NCBI RefSeq assembly: GCF_910592395.1
Contig: NC_088315.1
Coordinates: 14,057,808 to 14,121,807, forward strand
Direction: 5' to 3'
Origin: Lineus longissimus
Taxonomy: Eukaryota; Nemertea; Pilidiophora; Heteronemertea; Lineidae
DNA length: 64,000 nt
Every line of letters begins with the position of its first letter. The first letter of the stretch is position 1. Position numbers and translations under genes: made by a program. This document shows, one piece after another, positions 21,959 through 44,435 of the stretch. Under the pieces are notes generated by a model, which had not been told where the DNA came from, made no database searches, and saw only the letters and a program-made list of their open reading frames with translations.

Positions 21959-23016
21959 GATGGCAGACTTACAAGACCTGAGTGAAGACCAACTGAAGCA
22001 GAAGATTGCTGACCTGAGGGCTGACCTGACAGCAGCGAAGCTAATATAAATGAAGCAAATGCAGTTGGGAGCATCCGTGAGCTTAGGGGTGAGTCCAAAG
22101 CCTTAAAGGAAACTGTAGATAAGCTTAAAGGTAAGGATACTGTATATGCGGGGAGGGACCGAAAGCTTGAGAAGTTGAGGGGGGCACCAGTGGCCAGTAA
22201 AGACCCAGAAGTAGAAGAGTGGGTCAGAGATGCCCAGGGCATCATAGAGTCCAGGAAACTGAAAGGGCAAGATGCCATTAACTTTGTAACTGACCATTTG
22301 GCTGGCGACGCCCGTGTGGAAGTGGATAGTAGGGGGAAGATCGACGATGTCAAAGATCTCTTCAAGATTTTGAGGAATGTCTTTGACATTGCCGATTCTT
22401 TGCCTCAACTGAGGCGTAAGTATTATGCGAGGTTGCAGGCGGAGGAGGAGAATTCGGGGCGAGAATTCACCAACGCATGGAGATGCTGGACTCCGCGCTG
22501 AAAGCCACTAAGGAGGAGGCCCTTAGGGCACAGCTCGCGGAAGGGTTTAAAGACCCTCAACTCCGGCGAGAAGCCCTTCGCTGGATCCGCGAGAAGAACG
22601 GCAGCTTTTTCGAGTTGCGAGACTGGGCAACAGAGTGGGTCCGCCAGGGTGAGGCCAGTGATCTAAAGGTAAAGGCCAAAGTTAGGGAACATCAGGCAGA
22701 ACCAGCCCTGATGGAAATGCTCAAGGAACAGAATGTTATCTTGAAGGAGCAGGTGAAGGCTCAACAGGAGTTGGCAAAACTCATTGCAGGAATGAATGGG
22801 CCAACTAGTAAAGGGCAGAAATATGACCAACGGGGACGGGCCTGTTTCAAGTGCGGCAGCCTGGATCACCTAATTAAGGACTGTCCAGATGCACAGAAGA
22901 AAGCCAAGGCTAAGAAAAATACGGGTAAGCCCAAAGCGAAGACAAATGAACAGGCGGTCACAGGGGCGTTAAACTTGTTCGAGCCCCTGCTGAGGGCCGA
23001 GCAGCGGGCGATTTAA
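21959..23016 (+). pseudogene. gag: Gypsy gag with stop and frameshift
   Basis: A frame starting ATGGCAGACTTACAAGACC hits a stop near 22047, continues in another frame (VEEWVRDAQGIIESRKLKG), and shifts again near 22480. A CCHC zinc knuckle, CFKCGSLDHLIKDC, lies near 22843-22886, followed by a Lys-rich tail. The layout resembles gag of Gypsy elements related to PNMA-type proteins. At least two disabling changes are visible. Confidence 0.75.
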
Positions 23017-23069
23017 GAGGCTCTGTTCTTGCCAAGGCAATTGGCAAGTGCCCGGAAGCCGATATTCAG

Positions 23070-24970
23070 GTGTGGGGCGTGAGTGTCCGGTGTTTATTAG
23101 ACACTGGGGCCCAGGTAAGTACCTTGACAGAGAGTTTCTTCAAGGAAACTCTCAAGGGTCAGGTAAGGGTTCTGGATACGTCTTCCTACCTGAAGATTAC
23201 CGCTGCCAATGGCCTGCGTATCCCTCACGTTGGGTATGTTGAATTAGATATTGTAGTGCATGGAAGAACATTTGAGAAAATGGGTTTCCTTATTGTCAAG
23301 GATACTCCAAGCTTTAGGAAGAAGGTTGTGCCAGGTATTTTAGGCAGCAACATATTGAGGTGGTTGAATGATAGTTTTCAGGGTCAACAATTAGACACTG
23401 ATCGGGATTCAGTGTTACATTTATACAGTCATTGTGCCGTAGGTGACCTACCACCGGCGGTAGATGCAGACGACCATGGATTAATCAGTCAGGTGAGAAA
23501 CGCTAGTTCTGAACCCCTGCTTTTGCCAGCTGGCACAAAGAGGATCATCAAAGCTAGCGCCCCTTTCCCAAAAAGGGGTACCTCGTACTGTGCCTTAATA
23601 GAAGGCATACCATCAGAAGACTGCTCGCTCCCAAAGGGACTAGTAGTAGCAGCTTCGTATTCCATGGTCATTGACGGCCAGACCTGGGTTCAAGTAGCCA
23701 ACTTTGGGGAAGAAGATGCCTACATCCCAGGTAAGTGTTTATTAGGAAATTTATTGTTGGGGGAAGTACCCTCAGCTCCCATGAACGTAGAGGTAATGGA
23801 AGTCTCTGCGAATGAGGTCAAGGTTGGGAGACAGTATGACCCGGAACCAACACCAAGCAAAGCTACCACAGAGAAGGTAGCCCGACTGATGGAAACCATG
23901 CATATTGGTGAGTTGACTAGATCCGAAAGGAAGAGATTTGAGCAGTTGCTTCAGCGGTTTCCTGATCTATTCAGTGATGGTGATCATGACTTAGGGTACT
24001 GTGACAAAGTCAAGCATAAAATTGTACTAACTGATGATAAGCCTATCAAGGTCCCTCATAGGCGTATTCCACCTCATCAACTGCAGGCTGTTAAGGAATA
24101 CCTGGAGACTCAGCTTCAGGCAGGTATTATTAGGCCTAGTACATCAGCTTATGCTTCAGCGATAGTTTTGGTTCGCAAGCCGGACGGTAAAATGAGAGTT
24201 TGCGGGGATTTTAGATCGTTGAACGCAAAGACAGTCAAAGATGCCCAACCCGTAGTTAGAATACTAGAGGCCTTGGAGGCATTGTCTGGCTCAAAGTTCT
24301 TTTGTACTTTAGATTTAGCTCACGGTTTTCTACAATGTGGAATCGAGGAGGAGGATATCCCGAAGACTGCTTTTCGGGCTGGGTTTGCAGCCCTGTATGA
24401 ATACACCCGTATGCCGATGGGGCTCTGTAATAGCCCTGCTACGTTCTCCAGACTGATGCAAACTTGTCTTGGAGATCAGAATCTGGTCTCTCTTGTAGTG
24501 TATTTAGACGACATTTTGATCATGGGGAAAACCTTTGATCAAACCCTGGAGAGGCTAGAAATGGTTTTCACGAGGTTGCAAAGCTTTGGTCTGAAAATCA
24601 AACCAAGTAAGTGCCATTTCTTTCTTGCAGAAGTTAACTTTCTTGGTCATGTAGTCTCAGAGAAAGGCATAGCAACTAATCCTGAGAAAATTGCAGCTAT
24701 CAGAGACTGGAAAGTCCCTGAAACCGAGAAGGAGTTGAGGTCATTTTTAGGGTTAGCCTCCTATTATCGCAGGTTTATCAAAGGATTTGCCACCATGGCT
24801 GCACCCCTTCATGTTCTTTTGGGTGGTCCCAAAGGAAAAGACAAGACCAAAGGTAAGAGGTTAAGAGACGAGGAATTTCGGGCTCAGTGGACTCCTGAAT
24901 GTACAGAGGCATTCAGAAAATTACAGGATAGCCTGTGCACCTCCCCAGTACTGGGATACACAAAGGAAGA
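23070..24970 (+). pseudogene. pol: Gypsy protease-reverse transcriptase, truncated, fused in frame to BEL protease
   Basis: The aspartic protease motif is CLLDTGAQVSTL near the start. Reverse transcriptase blocks follow: VRKPDGKMRVCGDFRSLN, FCTLDLAHGFLQCGI and the active site VYLDDILIMG, then PSKCHFFLAEVNFLGHVVS. The reading frame does not end with the Gypsy sequence. It continues open into BEL protease (MAIIPVKVRLK...) and stops at 25088, giving a 672-residue chimera. RNase H and integrase are absent. Confidence 0.8.
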
Positions 24971-27796
24971 GGACACAGAGGTTACCATGGCAATCATCCC
25001 AGTTAAGGTCAGGCTCAAGAACACAAGAAAGGAAATCAACACCTATGCTTTCTTTGACCCAGGCAGCACAGTCCACTTCTGCACGTAGATCTGATGAGAA
25101 GACTGGGAGCTGGAGGAAAGCGAGCGAAAATAACCCTCAACACGATGGGCTCAGAGCATACGATGCAGACCTACATTATCAAGGGCCTAGAAGTCTGTGA
25201 CTTAAACAGCAGCAACCCAGTGGAACTGGGTAGGCTGTACACGAAGGATACGATTCCTGTATCTCCACGACACATCCCCAGGAAGGAGGATATCCAGAAG
25301 TGGCCGCACCTTAAAGAAGTGGACCTACCAGAGATCAACAGTGAAGTGGGACTCTTGATTGGGAATGGCGTCCCTGACGCTTATTCCCCCCTCCAGTCGC
25401 TGACAGGCCCGCCAGAAAGCCCACATGCAGTGAAGACACGACTTGGGTGGATAACCTGGAACGTCGTACGCAGCACCAACACCAATGCAGACATGAGCCA
25501 CTCGGTGAACCGGGCTGAAGTTTCAGCAGTAAAGGAGCTAGAAGATTACGAAAGACTAGACAGACTAGTGCGAAGCTCAATCAACCTTGATTTCCTGAAA
25601 GAGGAGTTGACGAAAGTGAATACTCATTGGAGGACAAACAGTTCATGGAGATGATGGAAGAGTCCATCCACCAGAAGGAAGGCCAATATGAAATGAAATT
25701 GCCCTTCCGTAGAGAAGACGTCCAATTGCCTAACAATCGTTCACAAGCCCTGCAGCGTCTAACTAGCCTGAAACACAAGATGAAGAAAAACCCGAAGTTC
25801 CATCAAGACTACAAGGATTTCATGCAGCATATATCAGATCATTCTTATGCAGAAGAGGTCTCCGAGTCAGAAGTAGATCGAAATGATGGCAGGGTCTGGT
25901 ATATCCCACACCATGGGGTATACCACCCAAGGAAGGCTAAGATAAGAGTCGTCTTTGATTGCTCCGCTAAGTATGCTGGCCTGTCCCTTAATGACACTCT
26001 ACTTCAGGGCCCCAACCTGACCAATAATCTAGTTGGCGTGTTGCTGAGGTTCCGAAGATATCCGGTGGCGATCACTGCAGACATTGAAAAGATGTTCCAT
26101 CGGGTGAGAGTTAGCAGCGAAGATAGGGATTACCTGCGATCCATGTGGTGGCCAGATGGCGACGTGGAAGCTGAGCCCAGAACGTACCGGATGAATGTCC
26201 ATTTGTTTGGGGCTGCATCATCCCCAAGTTGTGCCAACCTGGCACTCAGAAAATTAGCAGAAGACTATCGTGAAAACTACAGCGAAAAAACCATCAAGGC
26301 TATCCTGAAATCTTTCTATGTTGATGACTGTTTGGAGTCGATCAAATCAGAGGTCAAGGCCATCCCCCACGTCAAAGAACTAACAGGCATCTGTAATCAA
26401 GGAGGGTTCAGGTTATCACAGTGGCTAAGTAATAGCTGCATGGTTTTGGAGTCGATACCTGTGGAAGAGCGATGTAAGGGCGCTAAGGATCTTGACCTCG
26501 ATAAGGATCATCTGCCAATAGAACGAACACTTGGCGTGACATGGCAAGTTGAGAATGACGCCTTCAGTTTCGCTATAAAGATAGAGGATCGCCAGCCTAC
26601 AAGACGAGGATTGCTGTTCGTTATTAGTTCGGTGTACGACCCCCTTGGTCTAGCTGCACCTTTTATCCTCCCAGCGAAAATCCTTCTCCAACGTCTGTGT
26701 GAAAAAAATCTTGGCTGGGATGAAGAAATAGACGGACCCGAACTTGAGAGATGGCAAGTGTGGCTACAAGACCTACCCAAGCTAGAGAAGCATGTCGTTC
26801 TCAGATGCGTAAGGCCTAGGAACCTTGGGGTCATTCGCTCAAGTCAGGTGCATCACTTTGCTGATGCTAGTGAGGCCGGTTACGGGACTGCCTCTTACCT
26901 CAGGCTCGAGGATACAAATGGTAATGTGTCCTGCACTCTGTTGCTAGGCAAGGCCAGGGTAGCCCCGTTAAAGAAGACCACCATACCCAGATTAGAGCTG
27001 ACGGCAGCTACTGCAGCAGTTAAGATGAATCATCTCATCATGAAGGAGTTGGACTACCCAGTCGATAACACCTTCTTCTGGACAGACAGCACCGCAGTCC
27101 TGAGATACATCAGAAACGAGACAAGCAGGTACAAGACGTTTGTGGCGAACAGGGTTGCCGCAATCCGTGAGGGTTCTGTCAGTCATCAATGGAACTACGT
27201 ACCAACTGGGGACAATCCTGCGGATGATGCTTCACGCGGGCTGGCAGTGGACCAGTTTCTGAAGAGCGAGCGATGGATTCAAGGGCCAAGCTTCCTCTAC
27301 AAACCACAAAGAGAATAGCCGCCCCATAACAGCTGTGCCAGAGGACGCCAACGACTTGTTGGCACTGACTCCCAACCATTTGCTGCTTTCGAAGCCAACA
27401 GAGCCCTTTCCGCCAGGCGTATTTACCAAGGAAGACAATTATGCCAGAAGACGTTGGCGCCAAGTACAACACCTAGCCAATGTCTTTTGGAGGAGATGGG
27501 TGAAGGAGTACCTTCCTTTACTCCAAGTCCGACAGAAATGGTTGAAGACCAAAAGAAACGTTCGACAAGGGGACATAGTCTTGATGGTTGATAACCAGGC
27601 TCCGAGGTGCCACTGGCCCTTGGGTAGGGTGCTCGAAACCCAAGAAGACAAGCAGGGCGTAGTTAGGACAGTCAAGCTCACGAACAGCACAGGCGAGTTC
27701 ATCAGACCAATCCACAAGCTTTGTCTCATACTTGAGGTAGATGACAACATCCGTGGCATCATCGAAGAGGACGAAGGAAAGAAGGTAGTGGGGTAG
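24971..27796 (+). pseudogene. pol: BEL/Pao pol: protease, RT, RNase H and integrase C-terminus; disrupted
   Basis: The BEL protease segment (IPVKVRL..., TYAFFDPGSTVHFC) ends at a stop and frameshift near 25086-25094. It resumes through the linker typical of BEL (LPEINSEVGLLIGN, KTRLGWITWNVV) and shifts again near 25630. The RT-RNase H frame (25627-27318) contains RVVFDCSAKYAG, ITADIEKMFHRV and the active site FYVDDCLES, followed by FADASEAGYG and WTDSTAVLRYI of RNase H. After 27320 another frame holds only the integrase C-terminal domain ([18 protein letters not shown]). The zinc-binding and catalytic core of integrase is missing, so an internal deletion lies near 27310-27340. Confidence 0.85.
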
Positions 27797-32871: not shown

Positions 32872-35800
32872 ATGGCAACTGCAATGCCATATCAGGTGCA
32901 ACCACCAGAGAAGTTTAACTTCAAACCAGATGACTGGCCGAAATGGAAACGACGTTTTAATAGGTTCAGGGAGGCATCTGGGCTTTCGACTAAGTCACAG
33001 GAAAACCAAGTAAATACGTTGATTTACTGTATGGGCGACGAAGCTGATGACATTTTAAACTCAATAACATTAACGGATGACGATAGGCGGTCATATGATG
33101 TCATCGTAGAAAAACTTGAGAGTTACTTTTTGCCAAAAAGGAATGTTATATTCGAGAGAGCTAAGTTTAATCAAAGGCGACAGTCAGAGACTGAGTCGGT
33201 GGATCAGTTCATAACTGATTTGTTTAGCTTAGCAGAACATTGTCAATTCGGAAACTTAAAGGATGAGTTGATCCGGGACAGAATCGTTGTTGGCATAAAG
33301 GACACTAAGCTAGCTGAGAAAATGCAGCTCAACTCTAACTTGACATTGACTAAAGCTATGACAATGGTCAGACAATGTGAAAGCGTTAAAGCACAACAAA
33401 CTGTGTTAAGGGGCACTGAGCTAGGCAGCACCGCGGAAGTCGCGAAAGTAGGTGGTTCTGATAAACCTACAAGTAGTAAAGGTGGACACAAGAAACCAGG
33501 TTGGGTGAAACAGCATCAGCGAAAGGGAAACCCAGGTGGGAGAACTAAATCACAATGGAAAAACAAGGACGGGAAGTGTCATAGGTGTGGCAAGACTCCA
33601 AGTCATAGTAAACAGAATTGCCCAGCGAAGGACGCTGAGTGTCATAAATCCAAATTTACTGGTCATTATCAGAAAATGTGTAAAAACTCTAAAACTGTCA
33701 GTGAAATCCAAGAAGAAGGTATATTTCTAGGTGCAGTTAACAGTAAGTTACACAATGGCTGGGTGAGTGCCGTTAAACTTGGAAGCACCAAGGTTAATTG
33801 GAAAATAGACACTGGAGCGGAAGTCTCTTGTATCCCGTATGGCATTTACACTAGGAATAAAGCGTCGCTAGGGAAGCTACACCAGCCAGACCGGAAGCTA
33901 TTCGGTGCTGGAGGGAATGAACTTCAGGTGAAGGGTGTCATTCTAACCAGGCTACAAAAACGTGATGTCAAGGTTGACTCTGTAGTCTATGTCGTTGATG
34001 GACTTAAAAATCCATTACTAGGACAACCAGCGATCCGTGCATTGAAGCTTGTGTCTGTTGTAGAATCAGTTGATAGTGAGAGTGCTGATATCAAGAACAT
34101 TAAGGCCAAATACCCAAAGTTGTTTTCAGGACTGGGAAAACTTAAAGGGGACTACACCATAAAGCTAAAAGATGGTGCTGAGCCCTATGCTATTTCTGCG
34201 GCTAGACGAATTGCCATTCCACTTTTAACAAGGACCAAGACGGAACTCGAAAGGATGGCAAACATAGGGGTTGTCTCAGAGGTGAGAGAGCCAACGGATT
34301 GGTGTGCTGGCATGGTTGTAGTACCAAAATCGAACGGTTCTGTAAGAATATGTGTGGACCTGACTAAACTTAATGAAAGTGTCTGTCGTGAAAGGCATCA
34401 AATGCCATCTGTTGATTATACTTTGGCACAGTTAAAGGGTGCAAAGGTCTTTAGTAAGCTAGATGCAAATTCTGGGTTCTGGCAGATCCCATTGGATCCC
34501 GAGAGTAGAAAGCTCACAACGTTCATGACCCCATGGGGCAGGTACTGTTTCAATAGACTCCCCTATGGAATCTCATCGGGACCCGAACTCTTTCAAAAGC
34601 GAATGCAGGAAATTCTTGAAGGACTTGACGGCGTTCTAGTTGAAATTGACGACATACTTGTCTATGGTATGGATCAGCAGGAACACGATAGGAGGTTACA
34701 CGCAGTGTTAAACAGACTCATGGAATCGGGAGTAACTCTGAATGGACCGAAGTGTGAGATCTCTAAGGAGAAACTGTTGTATTTAGCACACATACTTGAT
34801 AGTGAAGGCATTAGGCCTGACCCAAGGAAAATCAAGGCAGTACAGGATTTTCCAGAGCCAAACAATGTGCCAGAACTCAGGAGATTTCTTGGCATGATAA
34901 CCTATCTAGGGAGATTTATACCGAACTTAGCGAGTAAGACTGAACCTTTACGTTGTCTTATGAGTAAGAAAAACAGCTGGGTCTGGGAAGGTCCCCAGAA
35001 AGGAGCATTTGCAAGCTTGAAAGCAGAGCTAATATCTCCACCGTTACTTGCGCATTACGATCCGGAGAAGGAAACCATAGTCTCAGCGGATGCTTCCTCT
35101 TATGGATTAGGAGGAGTTATTCTACAGGTTCATGAGAAAGGGGTTAAAAGACCTGTAGCATATGCGTCAAGGACTTTAAATGACACTGAGAAGCGTTATG
35201 CACAAATCGAGAAAGAGGCGTTAGCGGCCACATGGGCTTGCGAGAGATTTTCGGACTATGTGCTAGGGAAAACATTCTCATTGGAGACAGATCATAAGCC
35301 TTTAGTTCCACTGCTGGGAGGAGGCAAGAGCCTCGAAATGCTGCCAGCCAGAGTGCAGAGATTCAAAATGAGACTTATGAAATACTCGTACCAAATCAAA
35401 CATGTGCCGGGAAAGGAACTCTACATAGCAGATGCTCTTTCGAGGGCACCCCTTCAAAGGGAACGATCTGAGGCAGACATAAAATTTGATGCAGATGTCA
35501 CTGCATACGTTTCGGCTATAACACAAAATCTGCCAGCCAGTGAAAGACGGCTGCAGCAGATTAAGGAGAAACAATCAGAGGACGAGGTTTGCCGTCAACT
35601 GTTGCAGTACTGTAGAGATGGATGGCCAGACCGTCCATTCGTTAGAGGTGCTGTAAAGCCCTTCTATCCAATCTCAGGCGAGCTTACCGTGCAAGATGGG
35701 TTACTAATGAGAGGGACTCGTATAGTCATTCCGATGAGTATGCGTTTAGAGATACTTGATAAGATCCATGAAGGCCATCAGGGAACAACTAAATGCAGGG

Positions 35801-36843
35801 AAAGAGCTAAACATAGCGTATGGTGGCCGGGATTGAGTACCCAATTGGAGAACCTTGTTAAAAACTGTGCGGTCTGTGCGAAAGTGAGGAGCTATAGGCA
35901 CGAGCCTAACCTTCAGGGTGAATTTCCTCGCAGACCTTGGCAAGTAATAGGGACCGATCTTGCCGAACACAAAAAGCAACAGTATCTGATCGTAGTCGAT
36001 TATTATTCTAGGTACATAGAGGTTGAGAAACTGTCAAGTCTCTCATCTCAGGCAGTCATTGGACACTTGAAAAACATGTTTGCCAGGCATGGAATTCCGG
36101 AGAGACTGAGGAGTGATAACGGACCTCAGTATGACTCTCAGGACTTCAGATGTTTTGCCAATAAGTTTGAATTCGAACATGTGACGAGCAGCCCTTTATA
36201 CCCACAAGGGAATGGAGAAGCTGAGAGAGCGGTGCAAACGGTTAAAAACTTGATCAAGAAGTCAAAGGACTTCACATTAGCATTGCTAGCGTACCGTTCA
36301 ACTCCATTGCAAAATGGGTACAGCCCGAGTGAACTGTTAATGGGCAGGAGATTGCGGAACACACTTCCTCAGCATCATTCGAAGTTGGAGCCAAAGTGGT
36401 CTTATGGTGACTTGAGGAAAAAGGAGGAGGAGTATAGGAGAAAAATGACTTTGAATGCTGATAAACATCACACAGCCAGATCACTGCCACAGCTAGGCAT
36501 AGGAGACACTGTGTGGATTCCTGATAAGGAGGTCACTGGTTCAATCTCAGGACATGCTGAGACTCCACGTTCTTATGTGGTGACGACACCAAAGGGAACA
36601 TTTAGGAGAAATAGGCGGAGCTTATGCCAATTGGCACCGTCTTTGAATACTGATCAGGACAGTCAGGTTGCTCCAGACATTTCAGATCATTCATCTGTGA
36701 GCAATGGTGAATCAGGAACAGTTGCAGTAGAAACATCACAGAATGATACTAGTAATTCTGCAGGACAATCCACTCCGAGACCACCAGTTGTCACAACCAG
36801 ATCTGGTAGAATTTCAAAGCCAGCAGTCAGACTTGATCTGTAG
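32872..36843 (+). CDS. gag-pol: Gypsy gag-pol polyprotein, intact (1323 residues)
   Basis: Gag opens with FNFKPDDWPKWKRRFNRFR (about 15-33), near-typical of invertebrate Mag-like Gypsy elements. The first zinc knuckle is complete (C236, C239, H245, C250); in the second (C257, H265, C270) the second Cys is Ser260. Protease has DTGAE (Asp313). RT has FSKLDANSGFWQIPLD and EIDDILVYG (about 590). RNase H has SADASSYG (about 739). Integrase has the HHCC domain (HEGHQG to NCAVCAK, about 966-998) and catalytic D-D(35)E residues in GTDLAEH, SDNGPQYD and NGEAER (about 1029, 1083, 1117). There is no stop or frameshift, and no env. Gag and pol form one frame, so no frameshift signal is needed. The gene appears capable of coding; activity is inferred. 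Confidence 0.93.
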   Translation: MATAMPYQVQPPEKFNFKPDDWPKWKRRFNRFREASGLSTKSQENQVNTLIYCMGDEADDILNSITLTDDDRRSYDVIVEKLESYFLPKRNVIFERAKFNQRRQSETESVDQFITDLFSLAEHCQFGNLKDELIRDRIVVGIKDTKLAEKMQLNSNLTLTKAMTMVRQCESVKAQQTVLRGTELGSTAEVAKVGGSDKPTSSKGGHKKPGWVKQHQRKGNPGGRTKSQWKNKDGKCHRCGKTPSHSKQNCPAKDAECHKSKFTGHYQKMCKNSKTVSEIQEEGIFLGAVNSKLHNGWVSAVKLGSTKVNWKIDTGAEVSCIPYGIYTRNKASLGKLHQPDRKLFGAGGNELQVKGVILTRLQKRDVKVDSVVYVVDGLKNPLLGQPAIRALKLVSVVESVDSESADIKNIKAKYPKLFSGLGKLKGDYTIKLKDGAEPYAISAARRIAIPLLTRTKTELERMANIGVVSEVREPTDWCAGMVVVPKSNGSVRICVDLTKLNESVCRERHQMPSVDYTLAQLKGAKVFSKLDANSGFWQIPLDPESRKLTTFMTPWGRYCFNRLPYGISSGPELFQKRMQEILEGLDGVLVEIDDILVYGMDQQEHDRRLHAVLNRLMESGVTLNGPKCEISKEKLLYLAHILDSEGIRPDPRKIKAVQDFPEPNNVPELRRFLGMITYLGRFIPNLASKTEPLRCLMSKKNSWVWEGPQKGAFASLKAELISPPLLAHYDPEKETIVSADASSYGLGGVILQVHEKGVKRPVAYASRTLNDTEKRYAQIEKEALAATWACERFSDYVLGKTFSLETDHKPLVPLLGGGKSLEMLPARVQRFKMRLMKYSYQIKHVPGKELYIADALSRAPLQRERSEADIKFDADVTAYVSAITQNLPASERRLQQIKEKQSEDEVCRQLLQYCRDGWPDRPFVRGAVKPFYPISGELTVQDGLLMRGTRIVIPMSMRLEILDKIHEGHQGTTKCRERAKHSVWWPGLSTQLENLVKNCAVCAKVRSYRHEPNLQGEFPRRPWQVIGTDLAEHKKQQYLIVVDYYSRYIEVEKLSSLSSQAVIGHLKNMFARHGIPERLRSDNGPQYDSQDFRCFANKFEFEHVTSSPLYPQGNGEAERAVQTVKNLIKKSKDFTLALLAYRSTPLQNGYSPSELLMGRRLRNTLPQHHSKLEPKWSYGDLRKKEEEYRRKMTLNADKHHTARSLPQLGIGDTVWIPDKEVTGSISGHAETPRSYVVTTPKGTFRRNRRSLCQLAPSLNTDQDSQVAPDISDHSSVSNGESGTVAVETSQNDTSNSAGQSTPRPPVVTTRSGRISKPAVRLDL

Positions 36844-37656: not shown

Positions 37657-38085
37657 ATCAAATTTTCACGACCCATCGCCAAACGGCTGTCTCGTCTCCT
37701 AAAATATGTCGTTATTGCTCGCTAAATAATTCTGAAAATTCGCACTGCACACCTTTGATGTTTCGATAAACAACTCATTATACTATTTGATTTACTTAAT
37801 GTCCAGTTTTCCCTAAACTTCGCGAACACGAATCCACCTGGGTTCTCCAATCACTAATGATATACATAGTGCATTGCATACACCGTAGTCACATGGAACG
37901 GGGTTATAAATTGGGGGAATTTGCCTAGCTAAACCAAGAGTCTCCTTTCAACCCTACATACGTAGGTTGACGGAGACTAATGAAGTTCCCATTCTGCATC
38001 ACAGCCTAGCTGATGACACTGCAGTCACATACCTAAACTGGGTCAGCGAGAAAAATGACAATGGTTCAACGATAGGGGAGGTTCG

Positions 38086-38514
38086 CCTAATTTGGACCAC
38101 CCCCTAAATTGGACCACCATCAATTCTCAGCATTCATTTACACCAGTGAGCTGTGGAGCCATCTAGGGGATGAGTTTCACACTAAAATGGAAATGGCTGC
38201 AATGTAGAAAGTTTCTTGGCGGAAATTTTTGAATAAAGGTAAGAATTAGTTTTATGCTCCTCAACTAATAGTTTGCAACCTGGTTTCAGGGAGGGCCACA
38301 GCGCCAGGAAACAAGAGAACTGAATCTCTCTGTGATAAATACATTAGTTAGTAGCCTATACACAATTATAAAGCATGGCCTGGAAAATAACTCTTTGCCC
38401 CCTGGAATGCATGCAGGAATACACCCACCTGCACGCATGCCCTAATATGGACCAGCAAGCGTGCCCTAAATTGGACCAGTGGTCCAATTTAGGGAAAGGG
38501 TGGTCCAAATTAGG
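38086..38514. promoter_or_regulatory. left subterminal motif cluster of Z
   Basis: CCTAAATTGGACCA or a one-base variant occurs at 38086, 38103, 38441 and 38465, and inverted at 38480 and 38501. A matching cluster lies at 42269-42361 plus 42518. These are likely binding sites for the transposase DNA-binding domains; the role is inferred. Together with the nearby first exon they may also influence the element's own promoter. Confidence 0.65.
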
Positions 38515-38605
38515 GCAACATATTGGAACATCTCAAATTACACAAAGGCTTATTATTTCAGGAAAAGCCCGGCTTAGGCCCCCTTACAGACAGCACGCAG
38601 TTGCC

Positions 38606-41600
38606 ATGGCCACCGAAAACGAGGAAACGGGGCCCAACAAGCCAAAAAGGTAAGGCTAAAGCCTACGAGAAGCAGATGATGATAAATGATGAACCTACAG
38701 CACTTGATAGACCAATAAGCATGTTTTCCAGCACTTTTAAACAATTGAAAGCCAGAAAACACATCCATCACCTGGGAACATTATCCGATGACCCCAAAGA
38801 CTTCATTACTGCTCCCCTGAGCAATAAATATTGAATTTGTTTTCAACACAATAGAAAAAAGTACAGATTCTGAAACTGATATAGAACAGCTGTCCTTCTC
38901 ATTCTGACCCGTAAGACACATTTATTCTTCATCTTTCAGGCAATTTATACTCATTTTAAGTAGATTCCAGCATCGTATGTCAAAAAGTTCTATTTTTGGG
39001 AATATTCTTCATAAACTTTGTGCTTTTTTCTTGGCAAGATATTACTGATTCTCACTCCAAAATGGCAGGAAAAGGAAAACGCATTTTCTGACCAAAAATT
39101 TTCAGATTTTTCCAGGGGGAAGGCCCCCACTCAAATGCGCCTTCGGTGCCCTGTTTCACTGCTCCCACTCTTGGGAAACAAATTAAATATGACCCTGAAT
39201 GTTACTCGATTCTTTCAACAATTCAGTTGTGATGTTTGATTTTTATTTTCAGGGGGAAATATGGGAAATGGACCAAAGAAGACATGGAGCGAGCAATCAT
39301 GTCCTACAACAATGGTGATGCCGGGATCAACGCCATCAGCCGTACATATGGGGTTCCTAAAGCTACATTGAAAAGGCACATGGAGGATAAAAACAAATAT
39401 GCCAATGGAACAGTGAAAGTTTTGGGGCGTCCCTGTGCTCTGCCAACTGAAGTGGAGGACATGTTGGTGGACTATGCGTTGCAGCTGGAAAACATGCTTA
39501 TTGGTCTATCAAGAAAATCAATTATGGAAATGGCTTACCAATTAGCAGAGGCTAATGGACTAAAACACTGTTTTAATGTAGAGAAGGAATCAGCTGGGCA
39601 CCACTGGTATGAAATGTTGATGAAGAGACACCCGACGCTGTCCCTACGCCAATCAGAGGGAACTTCCACTGCGAGAGCCGAAGGATTTAATCGGGAAAGC
39701 GTGGGAGAATTTTATGAAAAACTAGCCTCGTTGATTGACCGGTACAGTTTCCTTCCTGAGAACATACATAACATGGATGAGTCGGGGATAACCAACGTCC
39801 AGAGGCCGGGCAAAGTCATCGCAAAACGGGGAAAAAAGCAAGTTGGGTCTCTCACGAGTGGTGAAAGAGGGACCACCACAACCATTGTCTGCTGCATGAG
39901 TGCTGCAGGTAATTTTACTCCACCAATGATAATATTCAAAAGCAAACGAGAAGTGAAGGGCTACTATAAGCGTGGGGCACCCGCAGGGAGTATAATTGAG
40001 AATAGCGAGTCGGGTTGGATCAACAGTGAACTGTTCTTGAAATGGCTGCAGCACTTCGTGGCACATGTCGGATGTACGAAGGCTAAGCCTGCATTAGTGA
40101 TACTGGATGGACACTATTCCCATACGAAAAATGTCCAGGCCATTCAGTTTGCACGTGATAACGGTGTCGTGATGTTGTCTCTGCCACCCCACACCACGCA
40201 TCGCCTGCAACCATTAGACAGAGTTTTCTACAAAGCCCTCATGACCCGCTATAATGAAGAGTGTGACAAGTGGATGAGGACAGAGAAGACGAGAGTTGCA
40301 GTTGCCAATGTATGCCAGATCTTTGGACAGGCGTATATCAGAGCGGTGTCAATGGAGACGGCGGTCAATGGCTTCAAGTGCACAGGTATCTGGCCATGTG
40401 ATAAAACCATATGGTCGGATGATGACTTCGCTGCAGCTGATCGACTCCAGGCAGCCTACAGTGCAATCGACCTGGAGCAGGAGGTGCCACAAAGTGAAGC
40501 TACCGGTACTGGTGATAAAGACCATGAAAACAGCATCAACCAAAATCCCCCCTTGGCTCCTGATGAGGATCCACAACCAATTTCGAGAGAGTCTGTTGAT
40601 CATGTTAATTGTGACAGACCAACCAGCCCGCCAACCAGTAGCAAACAAGATAAGGGTAGGCCTACCCGTAGACCTAACTTTGGATGCATCCCAACCAACT
40701 CAGATGGTCGATGTTTCTTCCGAGCTGTTGTGATCTGCCAAAATAAAGCTTTGCAGTCAGGAGAAAGAGACGTTGACGGCAATTTGACTGATCTGAAATT
40801 AAAGATAATGGAGCAAGCAGCTGCAGATGCCCTGAGATCAGAAGTGGTCACCCACATGCTTGATAACTTTGAGCAATATCAACACTTGGACAAAGGACTC
40901 ATAAATGCAGACATACCTCAAAGAATCCACTACGATTCGATGGAAGATAGAATTGCATCCATGGCAAATCCCACTGAGATGGTAGGAGAGCTGGAAATCC
41001 GTGCAACTGCTGAGCACCTGCAACGACAGCTATCCATCCGTATCGGCGATTCAGAGGATACTAGGCCTATACAGTTTGGGACAGAATTTGAGCAGCATCC
41101 TCCGATATCAATAGCATACACAGCCCATGCTGAAGATGTGGGCCATTATGAAGCTTTAGTGCCTTCTGCTTGTAGATCAGTTGACCAGGGACCCATTGTT
41201 CATGTTACCCCTGAAATGTTGAGGCATTCCGCTGGTAGATCGGTTGACCGGGGACCCATAGTTACCCCTGAAATGTTGAGGCCTGTCCCAAAACCCAAAG
41301 TTGCGAGAGTGAGGAAGCGTCAAACTACAAGAGCTGAGGTAATAACATCAAGCCCTTATCATAAGCAACTTCAGGCACAACAGGGAAAGAAAAAGCAAAC
41401 GAAGAAAACTATGAAAGGAAAGGTGACAAAGAAAGGAAAGGAGAATACTATGAGTAGGCCTATTACTAGTAAGAAGGGGAAGAAACCCCAAAAGAAAGCT
41501 AACCGCAAGCTATTTCATGCAAATGACGACGACTCTGATTGTGGTGATTGGTACTGTGTCTTGTGCGAGGAAGCAAGAAAGGAAACAATGGTCAGATGTA

Positions 41601-41674
41601 CAAAATGTTTCACATGGATTCACCAGACATGTGCAGGTGGTGTACCCCCACATTATAAGTGCGACCTATGTTAG
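38606..41674 (+). CDS. pogo transposase fused to OTU protease domain and PHD finger
   Basis: Exons 38606-38649 and 39253-41674 (AG|GTAAGG donor, TTTTCAG acceptor) join in frame to give 821 residues; the start is CCATGG. Order: psq-type helix-turn-helix (about 18-60, YGVPKATLKRH), CENP-B-type DNA-binding region (about 75-155), and DDE domain with NMDESG (Asp190), VILDGHYSH (Asp300) and LQPLD (Asp337), the DDD form seen in pogo. After an acidic linker comes an OTU-like cysteine protease domain: NSDGRCFFRA (Asp499, Cys502), GELEIRATAEHL and VGHYEAL (His646). Next are a two-copy RSVD-GPIV-TPEMLR repeat, a Lys-rich region, and a C-terminal PHD finger with all eight zinc ligands (Cys783 to Cys821; the last Cys is the final residue). 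All key residues are present. Confidence 0.9.
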
Positions 41675-42268
41675 AGACACTGAATAATTCGATGGCTCTG
41701 GTTCTGCATAGTGGCTGAAGGTCATTAATTCGGTGATTGTTTATGTTGTGTTTTTAATCGTTACAAAAGTGATTTGTTACTTTTTTGTATTTTGGACAAA
41801 GCAGACTGTCCATCAATTTGCATCAGGTTCATTTGTAATGTTCAGTGACATTAAATATTGATGTTTTTTTACGGCAGATTTATTTATTCTTGCAGACAGG
41901 GAGTTCTCTCTGTGAATACTATTATTAGTACTAGGAAGAAATGATGACCTAGTAAGGGACCATAACAAAAGACAAAAGAAACGAAATTTAAAATAAAAAT
42001 AAATAAACGGTTTGAATTAACCACTAGACCTGGAGTTGTAAAATGTTTGTAGCATAGTGTGTAACAATGACACACACTTAGGCTACTACAAGCCAGAGTT
42101 TGCAGGGAGATTCCCATTACCTCAGTCAGTAGAATGTTTGTAGAGATCCCCTTGAGAACAAAATTCTTTCCTCACCTTACAAGTGCACTGAAGAAGGCTC
42201 TTTAATTATGCATCAACCTTATTCCATCTAAACTCTATAAACAAGAGGGCAAAATGTGTAGAATACCC

Positions 42269-42531
42269 GATATTGGACCACCCTGCCCTAAATTGGACCA
42301 CTTGGTTCAATTTAGGGACAGGGGTGGTCCAATTTTAGGATGCTTACCCTAAATTGGACCATTTTGGCAAAAGTTTGTTTTTGCCCTCTTGTGAAAAGTA
42401 TGAAATGCTACAACTTTATATTTAGCCTGTGCGAAGACCTTCAGGTGCTTCAACATATAAGCTTAATTGATTGTCACAGCAAGCTAAATTAGCAGAGATA
42501 ATCAGCCATGAAAAAAGTGGTCCAAATTAGG
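42269..42531. promoter_or_regulatory. right subterminal motif cluster of Z
   Basis: CCTAAATTGGACCA-type motifs at 42287 and 42348, inverted forms at 42303, 42325 and 42518, and a partial copy at 42269. It mirrors the left cluster. Confidence 0.65.
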
Positions 42532-44435
42532 CGAACTTCCCCTAATGAAAAAGCAGTTGATTAACTCAACTATGTCAGTTGCTATTGAAGTACTTCAGGA
42601 TAGTATCAAGCTGTTCAAAAGACACGTCTTCAACATTAGGAATCAATTCAGGGAATACAGACGAATAAGACAGAATATGCAGGAAAATGAATGCTTGATC
42701 CACATAGATTTCTCTGAAAATTACACCAATCAGTATGCCGATGAAGTACAAACAATGCATTTCGGAGGTTCTCACGAGCAGACCACTCTTCACACGGGCT
42801 GCCTCTATGTAGGTCAAAATGTCACCAAGGCATTCTGCACCATCTCTGATTCAAGACAAAAAGATCCAGCTGCAATTTGGACCTACCTAGAACCGGTCTT
42901 TGAATGGGTCAACAAGGACTATCCACTGGTAGACACGGTCCATTTCTTCAGTGATGGGCCCACAACACAATACCGTCAGAAGAAAAACTTCTACCTGTTC
43001 AGCACGAGGCTAGAGAAATTTGTTGGAGCAACTTGGCACTTTTTCGAGGCCTCCCATGGAAAAGGTGCCCCAGATGGAGTAGGAGGAGTACTAAAAAGAA
43101 CAGGAGACAGACTACTGAAAGAAGGAAAAGATGTGCAAAGCCCACGCATATTTTATAATTTAATGAAGGAAGCTACCACTGTGAAGTTGTTCTTTGTAGA
43201 GGCGAGTAGAGTACAGGAGGCTTCAAAGATGTTACAGCCAATAGAGAAGCATCTGAAAAGTTTGCCAGGTAAGCTCATCTATGCTGTGTGGAAAAGTGTA
43301 ATATTTCATTTCAATGGTATTCTAGTACATCCCATTTGGTACATTTGCTTTTCTGAGATGATAAATGATAGGGACACTCATCTGTGATCATCTTTTCCAG
43401 GAACTATGACTATGCACCAGATTGTGAGATTGTCACATGCATCAATTTTCTACAGAGATGCAACTTGTATGTGCAGCATGGGATTTTGTGAGTGCATGAC
43501 CGGAAAGACGGCAACATTCCCAGACATGCCAAATGTTAACAACAACACTCTGGATGAATCGGTTGAAGAGCATCAAGTGTTGTCTGTTACAGCCAATACT
43601 AGTACTCAGTCTAAGGTAAGTTGCCAGAATGAACTAGGATACATTGTATAGAAATAATTCACACATGTGTGCTAACATTCCCTCTCGTAGTCTTAAAAGG
43701 CTAGGCCTAACTGTTTTTTCCAAATCTGATTTCTAGACCCCTGCCTTGCTGCAAGAAGGTGAAAGTGTGCCAGGTACCAGTGAGTCTGAGGTAAGTAATG
43801 CTGGAATGAAAAGTACTATTAGCATCTCCCCTCACAGTATTGCCAATAATGTTGTTTATCATATGGCTGAAACTTGCAACAGACAATACTGTAGGCTTAC
43901 GTAGATTTATTTCATTCATTTTACAGGTACCTGTACCCATCACTACATCTGCTTCAAATAGTACGGCTTTGCAGGAGGGGCCAGGACCATTGCAAAGACA
44001 TCTTAATCCCTGTCACTTCAAGTGATGACCATCTCCTCAATGCGTGGTGCATTGTCATCTACCATTTTGATGGTAAACCATACCCAGGGGTTATCAAGGC
44101 CTATGACGAAATTGGTGTGGAGGTCAAATGCATGTCAAAAATTGGCAAAAACCGCTTCTTCTCGTCCGGTACTCCTATGACGACATCATTACCCTCATCA
44201 GCGAACCAAGGAAAATAACGGAGAGGCGAGATCATTTCATGGTCAATCCTGTTGTGTGGGAACTTGTTGCGGACTACATTGACAGTGAATGACACTTTGC
44301 CATAAACATGAAGTTTGAGAAGTGATCAATGGGCAAGAATAAGGTTTTTGCTGTTCCGAGGGCTATTTTTCCTGTTTTGTAGGCAGTGCCCAAGTAGTTG
44401 ATTCAATTTAGCATACCGTAATCTACATTTTTTTG

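Follow-up and report, generated by a model that had tools for sequence, protein, structure and literature searches.

A pogo-superfamily transposon of Lineus longissimus whose transposase carries an OTU-like domain and a PHD-type finger

How an OTU-type cysteine protease domain and a PHD-type finger came to share one protein with a pogo transposase, and what they might do there, is the question raised by a locus in the nemertean Lineus longissimus (assembly of 391 Mb in 30 contigs). The stretch analysed here, which we call the window, comprises 64,000 nucleotides (C8:14057808-14121807; contig NC_088315.1), and an initial annotation of it had proposed an intact element at window positions 38075-42542 encoding one 821-residue protein with two DNA-binding domains, a DDD catalytic triad, an OTU-like domain, and a PHD finger with eight zinc ligands. 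Its boundaries and gene model hold as given, and the interpretation towards which we lean, with some confidence, is that of a recently active and complete pogo-superfamily transposon that has captured an OTU domain, likely a deubiquitinase protecting or assisting the transposition complex.

The complete pogo-type element occupies 4,468 bp (38075-42542) and is bounded by 26-bp terminal inverted repeats, the left one (38075-38100, plus strand) differing by one mismatch from the right one (42517-42542, minus strand), which are enclosed by a TA target-site duplication (38073-38074 and 42543-42544). Such inverted repeats and the TA duplication are features by which the pogo superfamily is recognized. 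The sequence CCTAAATTGGACCA, allowing at most two mismatches, occurs at 12 sites in the subterminal regions of the element, six on the left in both orientations (38086-38514) and six on the right (42267-42531), and at none in the remaining window; to judge from this clustering, these repeats are likely binding sites of the transposase. When the genome was searched with the exon-2 protein (806 residues), at least 60 places were found, only the best candidates being scored, so that the resulting counts are lower bounds. The two best places were the window and a second copy at C7:16774747-16777164, both with open frames. The two copies are identical at 99.93% over 4,473 bp (2 mismatches and 1 gap, one of the mismatches altering a residue from EML to EMF), and their match, which begins at the left TA, ends on both sides at the TA outside the inverted repeats, the flanks beyond being different. 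Given that the second copy is 99.93% identical and both frames are open, the OTU domain cannot be put down to an accident in a single copy, and the family has moved recently. When the flanks are joined with one TA, a frame is open from just past the sixth codon, across the junction and through all 381 bases, as expected for an empty site; this support is modest because the right-hand frame is open regardless, leaving only about 55 left codons that test it, which lessens its value for the interpretation. Match ends, second copy, and joined flanks fit a recent, precise insertion. At the left end no short derivatives were seen, its 457 bases matching 8 places that all lie within the two copies (4 candidates scored). 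The presence of two copies and no older remnants would suit an element that arrived recently, possibly by horizontal transfer. The element probably lies within the reading frame of another gene (37890-38074 and 42545-43387), and the flanking frame 42545-43384 had no Pfam match at E 0.01.

The transposase gene, on the plus strand, is predicted from the sequence to consist of two exons, namely exon 1 (MATENEETGPNKPKR, 38606-38649, with the ATG at 38606) and exon 2 (39253-41674, through the stop codon), separated by a GT-AG intron of 603 bases (38650-39252, GT at 38650 and AG at 39251-39252). The exon 2 frame is open over 813 codons (39233-41674), and the predicted splicing would add 15 residues to the exon-2 protein to give 821 amino acids. 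In Pfam comparisons the catalytic region DDE_1 (PF03184, 39776-40291) scored 75.7 bits against a cut-off of 22, and the triad consists of D190, D300, and D337, exactly where it had been claimed, with 36 residues separating the last two aspartates (DD36D). Both of the proposed helix-turn-helix (HTH) DNA-binding domains can be recognized, HTH_psq (39272-39397) above its cut-off (22.5 versus 20.4 bits) and an HTH_Tnp_Tc5-like domain (39449-39643) below it (17.7 bits, and 20.0 as a piece, versus 22.2); CENP-B_N also remained below (12.2 versus 21.2 bits). A DDE_1 domain with a DDD triad and an N-terminal HTH region again characterizes the pogo superfamily, and the length of the element and the size of its protein are within the ranges of 1.20-5.20 kb and 300-977 amino acids given for that superfamily by Gao et al. 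(2020, PMC7386202). As that survey describes its families, Fot-like pogo elements have the same two HTH types, yet are almost always DD35D, whereas a spacing of 36 is possible in Tigger and pogoR, but with CENP-B_N plus HTH_Tnp_Tc5 or HTH_Tnp_Tc5 alone, and in Lemi, but with HTH_ABP1_N plus HTH_Tnp_Tc5 or HTH_Tnp_Tc5 alone (PMC7386202). No solved structure was matched by the exon-2 protein by sequence at E 0.1, and scans of viral contigs revealed no relatives of this protein or of its OTU piece. In both copies, the intron contains 30 bases (38703-38732) that match, as an exact reverse complement, a coding stretch of exon 2 (39484-39513). In RNA spanning 38650-39530, these stretches are predicted to form a 30-bp duplex enclosing the 3' splice site (folding energy -245.5 kcal/mol, z -3.9 versus 20 shuffles), which might regulate splicing or be a source of small RNAs.

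Downstream of the catalytic region, the OTU cysteine-protease domain (40697-41149, plus strand) is recognized by the profile PF02338 over all of its positions (1-128 of 128), with 27.6 bits in the exon-2 protein, 31.1 as a 210-residue piece, and 30.8 in the genome search (cut-off 23.3), so that the OTU similarity seen by the initial annotation withstood a profile search. Its catalytic motifs are kept, with C502 (40712-40714) in SDGRC, an Asp-Gly-x-Cys motif, and H646 (41144-41146), the late His, in GHY, and these two residues also stand precisely where they had been placed. OTU domains are mostly deubiquitinases. No significant sequence match to solved structures was found for the OTU piece, the best (E 0.96) being OTU domain-containing protein 2, beside a DNA ligase (E 1.5), and the single-sequence AlphaFold model was too poor for use (predicted local distance difference test, pLDDT, of 31.7). 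A full-genome Pfam search detected OTU domains at 69 places, among which, by eye, only the two window-family copies are within pogo frames. By eye, 14 of the 20 OTU pieces that were compared belong to three near-identical groups. OTU is abundant in this genome, and several of the OTU loci (L032-L048 and L056) belong to near-identical repeated families, some with frames of more than 500 codons, which look like further mobile elements. L039, the best non-self match of the window OTU in a set of 60 proteins (phmmer with filters off, E 0.006), was not accepted as its origin.

The OTU domain is followed by a linker (41161-41500, plus strand) with a duplicated VTPEMLR, a EVITSSPYHKQL motif, and a lysine-rich stretch, parts of which are common to OTU-less relatives; the VTPEMLR motif forms a short internal duplication at 41161-41282. 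The protein ends in a PHD-type zinc finger (41555-41671, plus strand) that has all eight of the anticipated ligands in C4HC3 order (C783, C786, C797, C800, H805, C808, C818, and C821), with a PHD profile score below the Pfam cut-off. Binding to the tails of histone H3 is common among PHD fingers. When the finger was compared with solved structures, the best 4 of 26 matches (E up to 0.5) were PHF13 (two), PHF20, and PHF23 at modest values (E 0.0044-0.010), ribonucleases appearing from E 0.046 on at chance level; its single-sequence AlphaFold model was again too poor for use (pLDDT 49.4). Y782, M794, and W803 are candidate residues of a methyl-lysine cage, presumably placed as in some such fingers.

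Thirty transposase loci (L numbers) were compared, all of one genome and chosen by likeness to the window protein, with L001 and L002 as the two copies of the window family and L003 as the best-scoring locus after them. Absence of OTU was judged by motif scans of forward frames up to 1.5 kb past the transposase match (2.5 kb more for L003), because a home-made OTU profile, made of 20 OTU pieces of the genome, had low sensitivity and detected L001, L002, and weakly L007, but not L004. An Asp-Gly-x-Cys motif with OTU-like sequence was present in seven of the 30 loci (L001, L002, L004, L005, L006, L007, and L009), and OTU and finger are joined in a single open frame in five of them (L001, L002, L004, L005, and L007), L009 being broken, with the rest of it in L064. 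Those outside the window family (L004-L007 and L009) belong to a second pogo clade, in which the OTU-like domain stands at the corresponding place. A looser OTU pattern appeared in 15 loci, and the eight of these without Asp-Gly-x-Cys (L016, L017, L018, L020, L021, L025, L026, and L028) were put down to chance. In L004 and L007, the OTU assignment is based on a weak Pfam match, on the Cys and His motifs, and on the resemblance of the two domains to each other (89 bits, phmmer); the Pfam scan of the three-part relatives covered these two, L005 being judged by motifs. The initial annotation knew of no such three-part arrangement in pogo, and we likewise found no report of an OTU-bearing pogo element in a full-text literature search, although Repbase may catalogue one; within this genome, however, the arrangement is shared by L004, L005, and L007. 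In L003, whose transposase is 41% identical to the window protein and has the same DD36D spacing, the forward frames of the locus and of a further 2.5 kb contain no OTU motif, and the linker motif KTERAEIITSSPYKKRL, together with a degenerate finger, lies closely downstream of the core in another frame. The full finger pattern was detected in eight of the 30 loci (six OTU carriers plus L022 and L023), and degenerate forms in L003 and L019. Since pogo relatives may have the finger whether or not they carry OTU, the OTU domain looks like an add-on, and the finger is probably the older module. L013 (1399-3204) and L014 (769-2694) have, instead of the PHD-type finger, another tail in common (DYVL..., no Pfam match), and because they end in this other shared module, tails may have been exchanged between pogo families.

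Did these lineages acquire their OTU domains once or more than once? In a tree built from 18 of these 30 transposases (same-genome relatives only, with the OTU group defined after a first tree), OTU-less families separate the window family from the L004/L007 group, the presence and absence of OTU require at least two changes, and forcing all OTU carriers into one clade lowered the likelihood by 46.6 log units (approximately unbiased, AU, test, p = 0.00025). A single ancient capture, followed by losses in L019, L016/L020, L011, L012/L014/L015, and L008/L010/L013, is therefore unlikely, as a single gain needs about five losses on the tree. Furthermore, the two OTU types have no detectable similarity beyond the Cys motif, their profile comparison yielding 20 aligned columns at a probability of 0.7% and phmmer with filters off listing no match between the window OTU and that of L004/L007. 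What speaks for one capture is the equivalent position of the OTU domain in both groups, between the core and a (V/F)(T/S)PE(M/L)(L/V)RP linker, together with its divergence (35.8% identity between L004 and L007, against 65.1% in the core); because the domain evolves fast, a shared ancestry could be masked. It also tells against two captures that the position of the window protein was unresolved in the first tree, from which the OTU group was named, and that the tree samples a single genome, its rows having been picked for their resemblance to the window protein. The tree does not favour a sister relationship between L003 and the window family, but this grouping is not rejected either (p = 0.083). 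Two separate captures are the simplest reading of these sequences and more likely than one, though not proven. Tentatively, we can go further and suggest that two pogo lineages of one genome independently captured deubiquitinase-type OTU domains at the same seam between the core and the PHD-type tail, yielding self-contained transposases that may recognize chromatin and remove ubiquitin at their own target sites; we regard this fuller proposal as possible rather than probable.

A further alternative, which we find doubtful, is that OTU and finger are add-ons with a structural or protein-interaction role rather than a proteolytic one, and that recent ancestry accounts for the persistence of the active-site residues. 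The copies of the window family are near-identical, so that their retention of C502 and H646 says little about selection, and the fast evolution of the OTU domain would agree with such a role; against it, Asp-Gly-x-Cys and the late His-Tyr are kept in L004, L005, and L007, although the OTU domains of L004 and L007 are only 36% identical. Between L004 and L007, the proportions of nonsynonymous (pN) and synonymous (pS) differences are 0.44 and 0.81 in the OTU domain, 0.22 and 0.93 in the core, and 0.32 and 0.89 in the linker-finger module, suggesting that their OTU domain is under constraint, less than the core or the linker-finger module, in an estimate that is rough because pS is saturated.

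In the interpretation that we favour, the transposase would bind the clustered subterminal repeats via its helix-turn-helix domains and cut and rejoin DNA at TA sites with its DD36D domain, while the PHD-type finger would probably anchor it to histone tails and keep the complex on chromatin. The OTU domain, captured at the junction of the catalytic core with the linker-finger tail, would most likely serve to strip ubiquitin, or a tag resembling it, from the transposase or else from repair proteins and chromatin at the site of transposition, whereby the complex may escape degradation or the break may be repaired favourably. Several observations, apart from the rough estimate of constraint and the modest empty-site support, weigh against this interpretation. 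The genome search found the window OTU in only two copies and without a divergent relative (2 candidates past the first look), because of which its own constraint is not measurable. L006, a close copy, is interrupted by a stop codon exactly at its His-Tyr motif; as pieces, the OTU domains of L004 and L007 reached 15.6 and 17.0 bits, below the cut-off of 23.3, and their fingers are below the Pfam cut-off as well. For the window finger itself, PF00628 gave 12.2 bits in the whole protein and 18.9 as a 57-residue piece, which did not reach the cut-off of 24.

A chance insertion of OTU into one copy, or an assembly fusion, could be suspected with only two copies found, but it is very improbable, since both copies, on different contigs and with different flanks, hold the domain in an open 813-codon frame. 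The same low copy number might suggest a domesticated host gene, which can hardly be reconciled with intact inverted repeats, a TA duplication, a frame open over the joined flanks, and a near-identical second copy. Elsewhere in the window, a Ty3/Gypsy-type polyprotein (reverse transcriptase, ribonuclease H, and integrase) is encoded by a 1323-codon open frame at 32872-36843, and pieces of Gypsy-like and Pao-type retrotransposons adjoin at 22950-27315.

OTU domains occur in other mobile elements, as the initial annotation noted, and for a transposase with OTU, or with Ulp1 and PHD, there is a published precedent in Ginger1 elements, which, as described by Bao et al. (2010, PMC2836005), include DDE transposases with an extra C-terminal OTU and one family with Ulp1 and PHD. 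Unlike the window protein, the Ginger1 transposase is Gypsy-integrase-like and distant from pogo, and Table 1 of that paper lists OTU or Ulp1 and the one Ulp1 plus PHD family, but no OTU plus PHD (PMC2836005). Its authors suggested that the ubiquitin pathway aids transposition, for example via repair (PMC2836005). Helitrons and Helentrons likewise carry OTU or tegument-like deubiquitinase domains, but they are rolling-circle elements without a DDE transposase, and a PHD finger was not met in the relevant passages of two papers on them, no search having been aimed at it (PMC4067079, PMC9741609). According to these passages, Helentron OTUs have been proposed to give a signal leading to chromatin modification and Helitron tegument-like proteases to prevent degradation, transposon OTU domains being untested as of 2022 (PMC4067079, PMC9741609). 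In pogo surveys, neither OTU nor PHD occurs in the main texts of Gao et al. (2020, PMC7386202) and of another such paper. Ubiquitin-type proteases on transposases are known, and what this element adds is their presence in the pogo superfamily, where they were probably acquired more than once. That such proteases also appear repeatedly in other kinds of mobile element (Ginger1 and Helitrons) argues for a shared benefit. The element is a small, intact, cut-and-paste transposon with two near-identical copies, a relative that lacks OTU, and a second lineage that carries it, which makes the use of ubiquitin removal by a transposon directly testable. If true, convergent capture of OTU domains would point to ubiquitin as a means by which hosts repeatedly restrain DNA transposition.

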